Below, piece by piece: positions 8,575 to 46,835 of a DNA stretch of 64,000 bases. The DNA is taken from positions 496,001 through 560,000 of the forward strand of contig JAHLKD010000021.1 of assembly GCA_025526935.1 (NCBI GenBank), read 5' to 3'. Numbering within the stretch: the first letter of the stretch is position 1; every line of letters starts with the position of its first letter. The notes below the pieces were generated by a model, which was not told where the DNA came from, did not search any database, and saw only the letters and a list, made by a program, of their open reading frames with translations. The stretch is from Cladochytrium replicatum (lineage: Eukaryota; Chytridiomycota; Chytridiomycetes; Cladochytriales; Cladochytriaceae). The position numbers and the translations under genes are program-made.

Positions 8575-11013
8575 TCACCAGAGAATAGTTAAACATCCGA
8601 TCAACACCAATCCAGCGACCAAGCTTCCCGCGAGCGTTTGAAGGACTATCATCAAAATGTTTTCCCCTTGAGATATACCGGAGAAGCGACCACCTTGGTT
8701 TTCGGAGTCCAAAACGGCGAGACAGGCAAAAGTGGGCCTAATCTGCAGTATTCGCGACGTTGATCCGTCCGGCTCACAAGCAAAGGAGCTGTCCACCCGC
8801 TCCAGTTTCTTCCGCCATAATCAAATACCACCAGGTCTCTGAAGTCGGTGATATCCGCGCTTGTCAGCGTAACGATAGTCGTTTCTTCCCCCTGGTAGGC
8901 AACCGCCGTCCCCCACCGTCCTTGGTACGTTTCGGCAGCTCTATCAAAGAACCAAGCAACTCTCCCGCCACAAGCATTCCTTGCCAACAGCCGTCTGACA
9001 CGCCAGTGGAAGATCACCCGATTGCGCGAGGCAAACATCAGCCCGGCTACCGCTGCGGTGGCCTCATCCCCATAGCAATCATCCCTTTCGTGATTCCTCC
9101 AAAGAAGAGTGGAAGCAACTTGAGCAGGCGATGCCACCATTGTCGTCAGCCAGCGGAAGAACTCAAGTGCCAGCTTCTCAACAATATCTCCATCTCCTCG
9201 AGCATTAATATCAAGACGTCCGATCACTTTTGACACCAAACATGCGTTGTTGAACTTTAGGCGATCATCCGCACACCACGAGATAGAGAAGGGTTCCTCG
9301 AGCGGCCGAGCCAACCATATGATTCCGCCCTGCCCATCAAGTGATGGAAGAGGAACTCCATTTGCAAACTGCTTACCAGTAAAGTGGAGGAGACTGGTAT
9401 CCCCGTTTCTGATTGCGAAAGTGAGAAAATCCTGATGCCGAACTTTGGGGTATACATCGTAGTTCACTGGAACGTTTTTTCCGTAGGGCAAGAGTCCAAG
9501 AATACCATAAAGCCTGTCCGCAACTTTGGAGCATTTCCTTTCTTGGGATAGCTCAATACAAAATGCGGCGCCCTCGGTATGACATGATGACGTGCCCCCA
9601 AGCTTTGCCGCGGGCCAACTGACTCCATTAGGGTCCACGGATCGGTCGGAAAAGTGCATAGCGACGAAACCGGCGCACACAAGGTCGTCGATCGTGGCTC
9701 CAAGCTGTCCAGACCGTGATTCGACAAAAAGTACGCTGGGAGGTAGAAAGCACTCTTGCATTGTCCAAACGCGCTGGAACCACGGATCAGCCATGATTGA
9801 CTCAATGGCTTTTGCAGCGTTTGACGCAACTTCACGAGGAAGACGTGCGATCGAAATTTCATCAGGCTCCTGATAACGACTGACCGAGAGGCGCTTGGCA
9901 AGACCGGAAATCAGGTGCATAAGTGCAACGTTGTCGAGGTGCGCAACTGAGTATTGGCATCCCCTGAAAATTGAACGCATTTCCCGAATCTGGGCCGACT
10001 TGTCATAATCGGAATCTTGGTCTATGCACAGCACATCAACCCAGACTAGTCCCCGTGGAGGTACTCCGTGTTTAAGTAAGTGGGCAAGCTTAGCCTCTTC
10101 CCTCAAAGGAACTGTCCAGGGCACTAAGCGGGTGCCTACAAGTTGCGGCCGAGTTGTGCCCCAGGTGTGAGAGATTGCGATGTACCCGTCCTTGCTGTGT
10201 AACATTATGTTGCAAAAGAGAATTAACGGATGATCAAGGTGGGAAACAACCTAATTATGCTTACCTGACGCATGCATTGCAAATGGTATCCCCCTCTTTG
10301 ACAACAACGCTGGCATCCAGCACATATCGGATCTCTGTTCGTCTTGCTATTGGTGGTAGGCACGTTCCACATAGCAAGCAGTGACGAAGGCCCGAAACAA
10401 TCTGCAGCGGGATAACTTGACCGGCCAATTCGTCTTCCTCTCGGGGAAGCGGGAATGCCAGCTGACGAGCTGGTATTTCTTGAATTCCAGTGCGCTGCAT
10501 GATGATCACGAACATATCCTGCATGGGAACTCGAGTTGAGATGAGAGCGTCTTCACGGTACTCTCCGAGAAAGAGTTCAGGTTTTATCAGAAAGCCGTGG
10601 GGTAAGACCACTGGAAACGCACAGATTGCACCACTGATCATCCTAAGGAAACTCGATTTTGTGCCACCAAGTGCAAGGTAGCCGACGAGTTGGCCGAATA
10701 GGTACGCTTCGGTTACAAGAGGATGGAGCGATTTTTTGAAGATTCGCCTGACCCACACAGGAGTGCCAACCGAACTGAGAAGTGATGAATCACCCCTTTT
10801 CCACGTGTTGTCACCAGTCCACGCAATTTTCTTTCCGGTGACATAGCTCACGATGCTGGTCACAATCGAGACGTCGTTTCTGCTTGCCCACCGAATGGGG
10901 GAGAGCGGGTACTGTGAGACAAAAGGTGTACCTCGAGCGGCGATTCGGCTTGCGGCATCTGCGGTGAAGTAGGCGGTAGGTCGTCCAGAATTGTTACCGA
11001 CGACAAAAGACAT
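8575..11013 (-). CDS. HET-domain protein, possibly with C-terminal membrane tail
   Basis: A HET (heterokaryon incompatibility) domain protein; in ascomycetes such proteins trigger cell death on non-self fusion. Exons are 11013..10265, 10194..8778 and, if a 35-nt intron (8777-8743) is removed, 8742..8575. The spliced product is 777 residues, the unspliced one 763. The HET core starts at residue ~250: YIAISHTWG, then VWVDVLCIDQDSD, then WFQRVWTMQECFLP. The N-terminal 250 residues end in a Cys cluster (HCLLCGTC, then CNAC), perhaps zinc binding. The last exon would add a hydrophobic segment (ILMIVLQTLAGSLVAGLVL) like a tail anchor; the unspliced frame stops at 8652 without it. The true 5' end is unclear: a coding-looking frame at 11354-11040 lies in another frame and may be an extra first exon joined at the ATG. 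The gene sits between the two kinesin copies. Confidence 0.82.
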
Positions 11014-39710: not shown

Positions 39711-42700
39711 TCATTTGGTCTCTGCCTCTTTTCTCAACAAATACTCGAGGACAGACGTTTCTCCGAGCTCACGGGCGAGATCGATCGGAGATTTCCCGGG
39801 AGACCTCCGATTAATCACGCCACCATTCTCACAGATCATCTTCACTACTTCCAGGGACCCACGCCTAATTGCTGACAGCAGAGCATCAAATCCATCGTCA
39901 TCTCGGATCGTGGTATCGGCACCCGCTTCAACCAGGGCTTTCCCTGCGTCGTCGAAGTAGAGCTCAATGCTTCGAAGTAACGGTGTTTTCCCAAAGTTAT
40001 CTTTGGCATCGATGTCAGCGCCGCTGTGAATAAGAATGCGAATTAGCGTGGCGTCGTTCTTATTCACAGCCAAGTGCAGAGTGGTCTCCCCTAAAGACGA
40101 CACACCCATGATTTTCGACCCATTTTTGAGGAGCAATAGGCAGACGGGCGCGCTGCTTAACCAAGAATCGCGGCTGAGTTCCTTGAACAGCATATTGTTT
40201 CCGTCTTTGTCAAGCACGTCGACACTGGCTCCGTGTTTAAGCAAGCATGTCGCAACCTCCTCCCCGTAGCTATCATTCTTTGCTGTGTACAGAAGTGCAG
40301 TTTGGCCGTATTTGTCTTTGGCATTGACGTCTGCTCCACTCTCAATCAACCCTGTTGCTGTTGAGGAAGACAGTTTCTCTGCTACCACCATAAGAAGAGT
40401 CATGCCTTCCGGTAGTGGAATGTCGCTCTTTGCACCTTTCGACAACAAGTAGTCGAAAGCATCTGAATCGCCCGAGCGAGCTGCCTCGGCCAGTGGTGTA
40501 TATCCTTCGTTATCGACGGCATTGATATCCAGCCCTTTTCGAAGGCAAAAGTCGATGAGCTCCGTGCTACGCGCAAAGTGGAGCATAGTTTGACCCTTGG
40601 TGTTCTTCATGCTCCCGTTAACAGCCAAAAGCCTCTTATGGAGCAAACGCAGGACGTCAAGACTGCCCTGTTGTGCGGCTAGCAATAATGGAGTCATGTT
40701 CTTCTCTGTCTCGACATCTAGTGCCGCACCAGCGTCCAGTAACAAAACGCAAGTTTCCTTGTTTCCATTTTCCGCTGCTCTGCACAAAGATGTATACTGC
40801 TCAGCGCCGCGTGCATCGATATCTGGTTTCTTTTCCAAAAGTACTTCAACCACTTCGGGATGCTCAAATGTAACCGCAAGATAAAGGGGGAAATTGAATT
40901 CCTTTGGAATTCGTGCGTTGACGTCCGCGTCGTGGGTGAGAAGCTCTCTGCAAGTTTCCGCAGAACCAAACTCCGCAACTAGGTGGAGCGGTCGACGCTT
41001 GTTTGACGATTTCGCCTCCACATCGACGCCCTTGTCGAGCAGGAGCTTCACAACCGCCGCGTTGTCGCGACGACAGCGCGCAGCGTAGTGGATCACAGCT
41101 TCGTTTTCAAGATCCGAGACCTCAGGGCTTATCCCGTTGTTCAAGAAGAACTCGACTACATCAGTGTGACCGTTCAGAGCCGCAAAATGGATGCCTTGGG
41201 CACCCGTGTGGTCCACTCGAACATCTAGCTGCGCTCCGTGTTGATGGAGGAGAGAAATGACGTCAAGCCGGCCAGCTTCTGCAGCGAGGTGAATGGAGCG
41301 GCGGAAGTCCGCGTCGGCATTCTCGATAGATACGCCCATCTCAATTAGAGTCTTGACGGCGTCAAAATAGTTGAACTGTATAGCTCTGTTCAACGACTGC
41401 CTCCTCATTATCTGATCCGAATCGTCGGGAGAAAAATGCCGTCTCCTAGTATCTTCATTGAGATACACTGGTGTTAGAAGGGAGTCGATGATTGACTGCG
41501 GCGAGGCACCCTTGTTGCGTAGAACCTGCACCAGCGACGAAGCTTGTTCTGTGATAAAGGGAGAAACAATGAGTGAGCTAGCGCACGAGGCCCATGCAAG
41601 TTACGATGTACCTGGAGGCAGTGCAAGATATCCCAGAGCAACCTGTTGAATAACCGAGTTCCCTTTGATTGCATCAATGAGGGCCCTTGCTGTTGTTGGC
41701 GGGATCCACGGGACAGGGCAAGTTAATGTGCCAAATCTTACGACTGTCGGTAATTCAGATCATCTATCGAAGGGATAACGACAATACTCTCACCTTTGAC
41801 TTCCTTATCGCCTGCTTCTTCGATGTTATCATCCGCATCATTGTAAGCGCTAGCATCTTCCCCTTGCCAACCGTACACTATAGCATTCAGAAATACCTTC
41901 TTTAACGACTTGTTGACCTTCAACATTTCCGCAACGGCCGCCACGCCGGCGTCCCCAAAGTCATTGTTAGACAGGTCAATTTCCTCCAATGACGTATTTG
42001 TCTTCAACGCTTCTGCAAGTTCCTTGATTTCTTCAACAACCGAACAACCGAAGTTAATTTTGCTCATCGGACAAGAGGCATGATATACCTTCATCAATCA
42101 AACCATTCCCGTTAATCGAAAACGACTTCAATCCATTGTTTACTTTCAACATCGCCGCATAAGCTTCAATTTGCTCTAGGTTGCAGCTGTTGTCCGCAAC
42201 GTAATATTTTTCGAGAGTTGAGTTTGATTTGAGTGCTGTCGATAGCAAAAGGTGTTCCTCATCCAAACTGCACTGGTCTAAATAAATAGCCTTGAGGGTC
42301 GTACTTGTCCGTATCACCTCCACAATCGCCGACATGCTCTTCTTATCAAGTGAATTTCCCTATTCAGAACAATAATGGGTGGATATTTCGAAAAGAGCAG
42401 ATTTTGGTGTACCCCCAGATCCAGACTCGTGAGCATACTGTTCTGTTTGAGAGTTTTGCAGATCAACGCGAGAGAGCTATTTGAGACTGTACCCCCCAGT
42501 CGCAGGCGCTGAAGCGAACTTCGCAAAACGAGATCATCTATGACGGTCGTAGGTGGGTTGAACGTTTCAGCATCGACGATGCTAAGTTCGCGGAGTCCAG
42601 ACGTTGATGCAGCCCCGACTATTTTAATAAAGCCCTTCACGCCAATGTCGACGTTGTCCAAGAAAAGGCTCTTGAGCGAAGGTGTCTGCATAACTAAGTT

Positions 42701-45700
42701 TGAGAGATCGTCGAAGAGGTCCAGGTTTGTAAGGTCGTCGTCGGTGAAGGTGAACTCAGATATACGACGAGATACCCTCAACGCATCAAGAATTATCTTC
42801 ACTCGAGCTGTTACGACATTGTAGTTGTTCCTCAATACTAGAGCAAAGCCCGACCTCAGTGCGCCAAAGAGCTTCTCAAATGCTTCGGTTTCATTGAATA
42901 GAAATGTGCATTCTTTGATTTCGAGCTTGACGAGCTTCGAAACCTGGCGGCGCTGAGCCAGGATTGCACCTCTTGCAACCCCTTCAATCAGCTTGTCGGT
43001 GATTTCAATGCCTGTACATTCCAGAATGAGCAACAGTACTTCATAAACAGATTTGAAAATTACCTTGCATGATGACCTTCGTCCAATGGGAGTTAAATGG
43101 GACGATATCGTTCCAGAAACGGAGAACCTCGCTTTCAGTCTTATCCCTGAGATGACACCAAGTGTCCGTGAACTCAAAGCCAACGTTGAGAAGTTTGAAA
43201 GATGCTTTTGCTTTCTCGAGTGCTTGCACGCCCGAGTCGATGAAATCGTTCACCTAAATACAACACCGTTAATGTCCCCACAAAAGTTTGGAATCAATTT
43301 ACCTTTGCAGAGATCCTCGGCAGAAGCGACTTGATCTGCAAATGGTTGGCAAGGAAAATGCCCTGCGTTTTTACGAGCTTACGAAGCATGGACGAAGCTA
43401 AAAGCAATCATTCACTGTCAGCATTCATTTTTCATTAAATAGATCGCAAAAGTGTTACCAGACAGATAAGGTTGTATAGTGTCGTCACTAGGTGCCCGAT
43501 CAAGCGGATACAAGTCACTAGAGAGTGCTTTGTCAACGGCTCCAAAGTCGAACCCTTTACCATCTCCGGCAGCAATGAAAACTGTGGACGGAGAAGTCAG
43601 TCAAACAAGGATGCAAAATGTGGATTTAATCACCAGGTAGGACTGCGCACTTTTCTTCTTCAGCTGCCAAGAGGGCAGTTTCCCACTCAAGCAGCAATGG
43701 GTCCACCGCAATGTTCGAGCGCTTAAATCTCTCAACTGCCTCGTTGGAAACCAACAGGAGAACCAAGACACTCTTCTTGAGCGCTTTGTAGCTGTCCTTC
43801 CAAGTCTGATAGCATATTAGTTTCGAACATAAAAATACACCACCTGCATACTTGGTCCTTCTTCTTCAAAATATTCTGATCCAAGAAGACCTTGTTCTGA
43901 TGCTTTCCTACGCTCTTCGCTTCCTCAAGCTTACGAGGGTTCAAGTGTGGGAACATCTGCAAAAATAGGAAGAACACTTCCGCGAGTGCAGACTCCGTTT
44001 CCGCATTGTATGAAATAAAGATGTCGTATTTGTAGTCGGACATTGCCCTAGGCCAGTCTTTGACCGCGTTTGCGATCGCGGTATCCGGGTCGTCCTTTAT
44101 GCTGGAGACGAAGAGCGACCTGTTTTCGGCTTGATGGATGCGTTCCTTCGCCTTCTCTATCTTTTCGGCACGATCTTGGATTTCAGCCTTGGGAGGACGA
44201 TCAGCAAAGAAAATGGTTAACAGGGGCGGACATGATTACCTTTAGCCGCAGCTGCTCCGACCTGACTGCCGCAAGCTCCTTTGTAAGCCTGTCGCACGCT
44301 GAAGCATCTTGTTCTAATAGCACAAAGAGGTCGGCGATAGCTTGAACGTTCTGATCTTTGGTGACATCCTCATGGTTGGTAAGGAAATCGTTAAACCACT
44401 GTTTGAGTTTGACGTTGTTCGAGGAGAGAACGGGGACTGGTTTTTGTTCTTATTGGAACCACGTAAACCTGGTAAATAATGATATCACAACTTTGGATGA
44501 ACACTTACCTTTTATCTCTGAATTAGACGCTCCCGCGGGTTTAACTGGAAAAATAATAATATATTACACTAACCTAAAATATAGCAAATCCACTAACCTT
44601 TTTGCGAATCAGCTCCAACCTCTGCCTCCTTTCTCTCGTCGCTTTCTTTTCCTGGTTTGGGAATCTCAAACGAAACGGACGGCTTTTTGGTCACTTTTGC
44701 ATCCTCAGTACCGGTTACCGCCAGCCCCATCGAAGCTTCTGGCTTCACGTCTACACCGGAGGCTTTTCCCGCACAATTATCAGATTACCTTCACCACACA
44801 ATAAAATGTAAAGACTAACCCGGCAATTTACCAGAGGCCATCAAGGCCCCGCCAGAATTCTTCTTCACAACCGTTTTGCCCGGCGCAGACAAAGCCGAGT
44901 TGGAGCTCCTCTTCACAACGGTTGCAGATGTGATCTTCCCTTCAAGTGAACACCGAACTCAGAACCCGACAATCGGCCAATTTACAAGCTTACCTCGAGT
45001 TGTTTTGGTTCGCGGTATAGCTGGAGGAGGTGGTACTTCCAGCACAGCGGGAGAAATCAACGATATACCTAACATGACGATTTAGTTTTCTTCCACAAAT
45101 TCAAATTCAGATTCCATGCTTACCTGGCTTTACATATGTACCATTCTTGTCCGTGGAAGGCTTTTCGGGTTGAGTTTGCACGTTTGCAGAAATTGAATCT
45201 AAAATATGCATTACATTACAAGGTCAACAAGCCATGCCGATGTACAAAAAGTTGTATGTGCCGACCTTTGTTCTGCGTATAAGTCGTCGACGTTATCGTT
45301 GTCGCGGAGGTGTACGAAACAGTGCTGGATTGACTGGCGTTTGCGTAATTCTCTCGCCTCGACTCTGCACATAATGAGTTAGACGGAGAGATTGAGGATG
45401 TATTGGTCCGGTTCGAGTACCAATTCGAGGTTCCGGAGGAGTAGACACTTCATAAACTTTCCGCGGTTCGTGGGGCACGGTCTTTGGTGGTATATACGGA
45501 GGTTCGACCAGATACGAAGCTGAATACTTCGACTTATACGGAGCAGTAGGCGATGAGGACTGAGCAGGGGGGGGACCAGGTGGCGGGGTTAAGGTCGGCA
45601 GCGGGCCAGCAAGGGCTAATTGGCAGAAAGAGATCAATTCTATTCTCAAACTTGAGTCAGGAATAACTCACGGCTAAAAGACACCGCGGGTTGGGAAGGC

Positions 45701-46835
45701 CTTCGGTTCTGACCATAGTAGCTCGGCTGCGTAGCATAGGCAGTGCTACCATTCTGTGCTGGAGTGTAGCCTTGTGCGGAAGAAGCGCGTGGGGTTGGTA
45801 GAGTCGCTGCACTACCAGGAGTGGGCAACTTAGTGTACCCTTGTGAAAAAACTTGAGAAGAAACGGGGCTTGTGGGCTGCGAAGGGTAACCTTGCCCAGT
45901 TGGCGCACCGCTTGGTTTGGGCAAAGTAGAATAACCTTGTCCAGAACTACCGCTTTGACTGTATTGAGCTCCTCCAAAGTGTCCGGCTAAATTTTGCTCA
46001 GATCCACTATTCTTGCGATAAGCCGATAGAGCAGGTTGATCATAGTACGGAGATGTAGATGCCACACCGCCAGACAGACCATAAGGGTTGGGGCTAATGG
46101 TTTGTGGAGCGGGGCCAAAATACACCTGAGAAGGAGTGGTTCCAGGATGCGACTGCTGACCATAACCAGCGGATCCAGAGTATTGCTTTTGGAGAGCAAC
46201 ACCGTACTGGGGCGTTTCTCCACTCTGAGGGGGACGGTAGCCAACGCTGTAACCATGCTGCTGCTGTAAGTACTGTCCATATTGGGAGGCCACGCTATTC
46301 GGAGCAGCTGGGCTTCCAGGGAAATGCGAAGTGGTGCGTGGTGACCCCGTGTATTGGGCAGTGGCGGCAGACTGATGGGCAAGAGGCCCTTCAGATCCAG
46401 GAGGAGGATTCGTCGGCGGGGTAAACAAATAGTTGCGGAAACTTTTCGTGAAGTCATCACCATTGGGTGGTGACTGGGGAGCTGAAATTATTTCAAAAGA
46501 TTGAAGAACAAGGTACGTAAATCCGAACGATAGTCAATGCAAAAAGATCATGATTAGCATGATCCGCTAACCTGCGTAAACTCACTCGACGTACCTGCAT
46601 GGGAAGGGCCCGCATCAACGTTTTGTTTAGAGGAATAACGAGGCGGAGGACGTACACCGTTGGGAGACGACGGGCTACCACCAGTTTGGCCATCCCCTTT
46701 ATCAACTTACTTGTGAGTGATGTAAAAGGGGAAAACAGGACTAGACTTACCATGGTGGTCGTGGTGCTGGTCAGGCGATGGATTCCCGGCGAGTTTTCCA
46801 AACTCTGAGCTGAACTTCCCCCACAAGCTCGACAT
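39711..46835 (-). CDS. TIR-LRR-ankyrin multidomain protein with Pro/Gln-rich N-terminus
   Basis: Exons (minus): 46835..46751, 46696..46595, 46481..45672, 45615..45421, 45364..45266, 45198..45124, 45068..44994, 44939..44820, 44762..44598, 44544..44509, 44436..44240, 44187..43852, 43805..43634, 43581..43459, 43397..43303, 43253..43064, 43011..42413, 42359..42089, 42030..41794, 41743..41612, 41548..39711. They sum to 1984 codons with stop. Residues 1-~400 are rich in Pro, Gln, Tyr and Ser, with four QGY repeats; ~400-590 is a basic Ser/Thr linker; ~590-700 is helical. TIR ~704-840: YKYDIFISYN, KVFLDQNIL, KALKKSVLVLLLVSNEA, then DPLLLEWETALLA, whose Glu 805 or 807 is the likely catalytic acid, and AVLPVFIAAG. 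Leucine-rich repeats ~960-1340 (SLEEIDLSNNDFGDAGVAAV). Ankyrin repeats ~1400-1975, about 16. No P-loop NTPase domain was found. By analogy with TIR-LRR receptors it may act in danger or non-self sensing and NAD+ cleavage; this is inference. Confidence 0.85.

Follow-up and report, generated by a model that had tools for sequence, protein, structure and literature searches.

A predicted TIR-LRR-ankyrin gene family without an NTPase domain in a fungal genome

The TIR-LRR-ankyrin gene and its parts

The window, which is the whole 64-kb stretch of DNA analysed here, carries on its minus strand a predicted gene that runs from 46835 to 39711 and joins a TIR domain, leucine-rich repeats (LRRs) and ankyrin repeats in a single chain. 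The features are as follows.

39711..46835, minus strand: whole TIR-LRR-ankyrin gene, 21 predicted exons, about 1982 aa
44414..46835, minus strand: N-terminal part rich in Ser, Pro and Gly, aa 1-594 (taken as disordered from its composition)
44038..44413, minus strand: linker, helical and coiled-coil-like by eye, aa 595-702
43390..44037, minus strand: TIR domain, aa 703-865 (Pfam TIR_2)
43686..43688, minus strand: codon of Glu804, which falls on the Glu of KEIVTAL in SARM1
42944..43389, minus strand: TIR-to-LRR linker, aa 866-980 (no Pfam domain)
41505..42943, minus strand: about 13 LRRs, ribonuclease-inhibitor-like, aa 981-1385 (by eye; Pfam LRR_6, 5.1e-9)
39714..41402, minus strand: 17 ankyrin repeats, aa 1420-1982 (by eye; Pfam Ank_2)

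Apart from the start at 46835, which was carried over from an earlier sequence-only reading, the gene model was rebuilt independently of the exons proposed there. A dynamic program scoring codon usage, splice sites and branch sites on the minus strand was run at four penalties. It placed the gene end at 39711 at all four, and the number of introns was 20 at two penalties and 19 and 18 at the other two. Splice sites chosen by hand gave 21 exons and 1985 aa, and a shift of the start of exon 2 to 46696 after comparison with the paralogue on contig C16 (L015) gave 1982 aa. The single gene of 21 exons and 20 introns put forward by the sequence-only reading is thus recovered by the independent model and by the collinearity of two relatives, and its proposed length of 1984 codons is revised slightly to about 1982 aa. 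Two early models were discarded, one with 18 introns that merely maximised coding length and one with 50 introns that was over-spliced. Because exon 5 (45364-45266) shows a 49-base gap against L015 and has no support from it, splicing in the linker near residues 400-460 is uncertain; the uncertainty covers exons 4-6, which lie within the disordered N-terminal part.

Ser, Pro, Gly and Thr are abundant in the first 580 residues, and this long Pro-rich arm carries conserved short stretches. It opens with an amphipathic stretch (aa 1-18) whose hydrophobic moment ranks fifth among 1964 windows and is similar in L015. The last exon contains all 17 ankyrin repeats.

In Pfam searches of the predicted protein, Ank_2 is matched with an E-value of 2e-72. 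The LRRs, about 28 residues long as judged by eye, match LRR_6 with 2e-7 on the whole protein and 5.1e-9 on the excised part. TIR_2 is matched with 8e-4 on the whole protein and with 3.9e-5 and 24.6 bits on the excised region, against a curated cut-off of 28 bits; the region is assigned as a TIR domain because that of the relative on contig C91 (L016) is 46-48% identical and stands above the cut-off at 34.7 bits. Neither NB-ARC, NACHT or any other NTPase nor ARM or SAM is found among the matches of the window protein at E 0.1, and L016 has no NTPase match at E 0.01. A missed NTPase was rejected on these Pfam scans of the two proteins. Two Walker-A-like strings occur in the window protein, one in the disordered part and one in an ankyrin repeat. 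The earlier proposal that TIR, LRR and ankyrin are combined here without NB-ARC or NACHT therefore holds in the Pfam search.

Relatives, coding test and selection

A query of the genome with the TIR domain returned nine matches at E 0.01, which are pieces of the window gene, of L015 and of L016, together with a weak match on C9 (E 0.007). L015, predicted with 18 exons and 1988 aa, is 77% identical to the window gene and collinear with it over the full length, including the disordered N-terminal part. L016, with 1532 aa in eight predicted exons, is about 28% identical; it has no N-terminal arm and runs from the helical linker through TIR, LRR and ankyrin to an acidic tail. The Pfam cut-offs are passed by its TIR (34.7 of 28 bits) and LRR_1 (24.3 of 20.6), and its LRR_6 lies just under (22.7 of 23.4 bits). 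The TIR-LRR-ankyrin order is thus common to at least three genes of this genome. When a genome-contig collection was scanned with an alignment of the three TIRs, a search sensitive to close kin only, 68 pattern matches and no relative were found. A bacterial origin is unsupported by the same scan, within the same sensitivity.

In the comparison with L015, 18 of the 21 exons, all but 5, 6 and 10, dip to their lowest identity at the third codon position, and indels are none or multiples of three in 19 of 21. The 2-base gap in exon 11 reflects a misplaced alignment beside intron 10 (44508-44437), which is missing in L015 at the same place in the frame. The other 19 introns show 33-71% identity. 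GT and AG are present at the aligned L015 ends in 14 of the 20 introns; introns 1, 2, 4 and 5 have no GT-AG alignment in L015, and intron 12 has one only with a 3-base shift.

The dN/dS ratio, estimated by the Nei-Gojobori method for this one pair, is 0.14 over 1940 codons. It is 0.34 in the N-terminal arm, 0.07 in the helical linker, 0.09 in the TIR-LRR linker, 0.11 in the LRRs and 0.09 in the ankyrin repeats, and the TIR domain is the most constrained part with 0.027. Among 60-codon windows moved by 30 at a time from residue 690 on, the highest value is 0.254. These values strongly indicate that every folded part is under strong purifying selection. Because L015 is collinear over its full length with diverged introns and with exons under purifying selection, and because L016 keeps the domain order, sequence comparison confirms the predicted gene as real and not as an accident of splicing.

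That the model fuses two or three adjacent genes is very improbable. The uncertain splicing near residues 400-460 would speak for such a fusion. However, the same order is found in L015 and, from the helical linker onward, in L016; the last predicted exon of L016 spans the last LRRs and the ankyrin repeats, so that the LRR-ankyrin junction lies within one exon; and exon 12 of the window gene holds both the end of the helical linker and the start of the TIR domain. A fusion artefact was rejected on the collinear relatives.

TIR and NTPase genes elsewhere in the genome

The genome (50.5 Mb in 198 contigs) has at least 84 TIR_2, at least 14 NB-ARC and at least 30 NACHT matches at E 0.01, the counts being lower bounds made exon by exon. 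When the lists were compared by eye, a TIR_2 match was found within 0.9 kb on the same strand for eight of the 14 NB-ARC and 19 of the 30 NACHT matches, and by eye the genome has a large TIR-NLR repertoire. Judging by 14 control genomes, these searches are not fully specific: NB-ARC was matched in 11 of them (3 over the cut-off), NACHT in all 14 (3) and TIR_2 in four (4). TIR_2 stands beside NACHT or NB-ARC on C61, C63, C80 and C71 and on C21, C45 and C103. A predicted TIR-NACHT gene on C9 (L018:2289-7340), with WD40-like repeats recognised by eye, has a TIR that resembles the TIR-LRR-ankyrin family in its DNLLLEWELAL stretch; because the predicted model contains an empty exon, the N-terminal part of this gene is unreliable. 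LRRs are also found at L067 on C103, without a TIR in the predicted gene. Within the window itself, an ORF at 8655-10250 on the minus strand matches HET, a TIR-related fungal domain, with a Pfam E-value of 9e-20.

Outside the TIR-LRR-ankyrin family, five places with neighbouring TIR and LRR matches were examined (L065, L066, L069, L070 and L071), and at four of them a TIR is followed by a P-loop stretch (GVGGSGKT) and then by LRRs. L065:300-4527 (C3:174800-180800) is predicted as one three-exon gene of 1361 aa. Its LRRs match LRR_6 with 6e-121, and its NTPase part (nSTAND3 6e-5, NB-ARC 1.5e-3) and its TIR (TIR_2 3.9e-5) stay below the Pfam cut-offs. The predicted model of L066 begins inside its TIR, L070 has a frame change within the NTPase part, and in L071 a stop falls late in the LRRs. 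A profile search of PDB with the middle part of L065 and L066 gave 20 hits at E 0.1: proteins with Sel1-type repeats and a weak match to the SRP54 P-loop (E 0.007), with no NLR among them. The sequences at L065, L066, L070 and L071 are candidates for a plant-TNL-like layout in a fungus. Since TIR and LRR are also joined with a P-loop stretch in this genome, the predicted form without an NTPase is one among several designs of TIR proteins in it. At L069 (C3:150500-154300), TIR exons 100% identical to those of L065 are followed by LRRs and the P-loop part is missing, which is either a recent deletion or an assembly fault.

The LRRs of the C3 and C54 loci are 29-33% identical to those of the window gene, and the TIR of L065 is matched by L015 (E 8e-10) and L016 (3e-14), whereas the window TIR reaches only E 0.07. 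In contrast to the window protein, the loci have STAND-like P-loop and Sel1-like stretches, and no ankyrin match is found in L065 and L066.

The conserved glutamate and possible modes of action

SARM1 is an animal NADase with ARM, SAM and TIR domains. In a PDB profile search with the three TIRs of the family, every one of the seven hits with E up to 1 is a SARM1 chain, with 0.22 as the best E-value, so this search finds no significant kinship to any solved structure, SARM1 included. A phmmer search of PDB with the single window TIR gave a designed protein only (E 0.23). In a low-scoring portion of the weak profile alignment, LEWETAL falls on KEIVTAL of SARM1, the Glu of which we take to be the catalytic residue. 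The Glu in LLEWETAL is invariant in the window gene, L015 and L016, and the TIR-NACHT gene on C9 has a match to the Glu804 motif in its TIR; the TIR/P-loop/LRR loci have VEIEEGL at this place. Such a Glu is by itself no proof of catalysis, as the residue is also frequent in one TLR subgroup (PMC7075850).

The reading that we prefer, tentatively and with a probability of about 0.42, is that the gene encodes a TIR enzyme that has no NTPase and is restrained by its own repeats, on a plan that is SARM1-like rather than NLR-like. The protein would be intracellular and would have no nucleotide-driven switch of the kind that plant and animal immune receptors have. Its TIR would most likely cleave NAD or make an NAD-derived signal, an activity that would arise once several TIRs are packed against one another. 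The helical linker may gather copies by self-association, and the disordered arm with its amphipathic start, present in two of the three members, may assist this gathering and could touch a membrane. The LRR and ankyrin solenoids would bind a conserved partner and keep the TIRs apart, and the TIRs would be released once the partner is present, lost or altered. The putative plan consists of a regulatory solenoid, an oligomeriser and a TIR, with LRR and ankyrin replacing the ARM domain.

A self-regulated enzyme is favoured because the Glu is conserved, the TIR is the most constrained part, the solenoids are linked to it and a nucleotide switch is absent; it is also supported by the three genes that share this domain order at an identity down to about 28%. 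Because dN/dS is low in the repeats, a conserved partner is favoured over variable non-self. However, the SARM1 hits of the profile are not significant and the single-sequence search lacks SARM1, L016 has no N-terminal arm, and the coiled coil was judged by eye, all of which count against the enzyme. A more far-reaching version, in which an autoinhibited NTPase-free TIR with a joint LRR-ankyrin sensor of a conserved cell-internal state evolved in fungi in parallel to SARM1, in a fungus that also assembles plant-like TIR-NTPase-LRR genes, is on the unlikely side.

The long Pro-rich arm with its conserved short stretches, the amphipathic start and the strong conservation of all folded parts would suit a non-enzymatic scaffold, in which the TIR serves assembly only and the arm and repeats collect partners, for example at membranes or the cytoskeleton. 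This is unlikely, because none of the three members departs from the aligned catalytic-type Glu and the tightest constraint falls on the TIR. Quite unlikely is a non-self immune receptor like fungal and plant NLRs, whose repeats would recognise pathogen molecules and whose TIR would trigger cell death. TIR is widely an immune domain, a HET ORF lies within the 64-kb window, and the genome has 84 TIR_2 matches, eight of them beside NB-ARC and 19 beside NACHT by eye. However, the ankyrin and TPR repeats of fungal NLRs are reported to be under positive selection (PMC4986451), whereas the repeats of the window gene are under strong purifying selection (0.11, 0.09 and at most 0.254 in a 60-codon window, from one paralogue pair in which selection on a few sites is possible). 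The receptor role raised by the sequence-only reading is putative, and purifying selection on the repeats argues against a fast-evolving non-self receptor.

Like SARM1, the window protein has a catalytic-type Glu at the aligned place, carries a putative regulatory solenoid in one chain with the TIR and has no NTPase, and SARM1 is the sole, although not significant, PDB match of the TIR profile (E 0.22). It differs in that LRR and ankyrin repeats replace ARM and lie on the opposite side of the TIR, in its long disordered arm and in that its NADase activity is putative. As in plant TIR-NB-ARC-LRR proteins, the TIR precedes the LRRs in one chain, but NB-ARC is absent, ankyrin repeats are added and the LRRs are ribonuclease-inhibitor-like. 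Toll-like receptors have an extracellular LRR, a transmembrane helix and a C-terminal cytoplasmic TIR, whereas the window TIR comes before the LRR. With fungal NLRs, which pair NACHT or NB-ARC with WD40, TPR or ankyrin repeats, the protein shares C-terminal ankyrin repeats and a TIR related to that of the TIR-NACHT gene on C9 (L016 34%, E 8e-14; window 39% over 75 residues, E 5e-8); it differs by the lack of an NTPase and the presence of LRRs. Of the two features of NLR or STAND receptors, C-terminal superstructure-forming repeats are present (LRR, ankyrin), and no STAND NTPase is matched in the window protein at E 0.1.

TIR enzymes are known mainly as outputs of NLR and TLR pathways, in SARM1 and in bacterial defence. 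In published surveys, LRR motifs are absent among 5,616 fungal NLR candidates, and chytrids gave no hits (PMC4986451); the lack of LRRs in fungal NLRs is restated (PMC12881547, PMC5658179). Other papers report TIR in Chytridiomycota NLRs (PMC9815663) and a scan of 122 fungal proteomes, ten of them from Chytridiomycota, that included LRR profiles and gave NLR numbers from one upward where found (PMC12258605). We rate the arrangement as a new combination of known modules that falls outside the NLRs, TIR in fungal NLRs being already known. No TIR-LRR-ankyrin protein without an NTPase is described among the literature matches listed, which agrees with the earlier view that the architecture is unusual in fungi. 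A conserved fungal family of this kind would mean that fungi, too, can do without the NTPase switch, and it is a compact system in which to ask what keeps TIR proteins off. Together with the TIR/P-loop/LRR loci, the family calls into question, at least in this fungus, the published absence of LRRs from fungal NLR-type proteins.

The fungal identity of the host, as assumed earlier, is corroborated by 24 Fungal_trans matches, with none in the 14 control genomes, and by the HET ORF of the window. The genome also has seven matches to the flagellar family IFT46, with which a chytrid would be compatible. Two copies on C45 (121827-122625 and 132613-133411) are of near-equal score, in opposite orientation and about 10 kb apart, and a third copy lies on C23.
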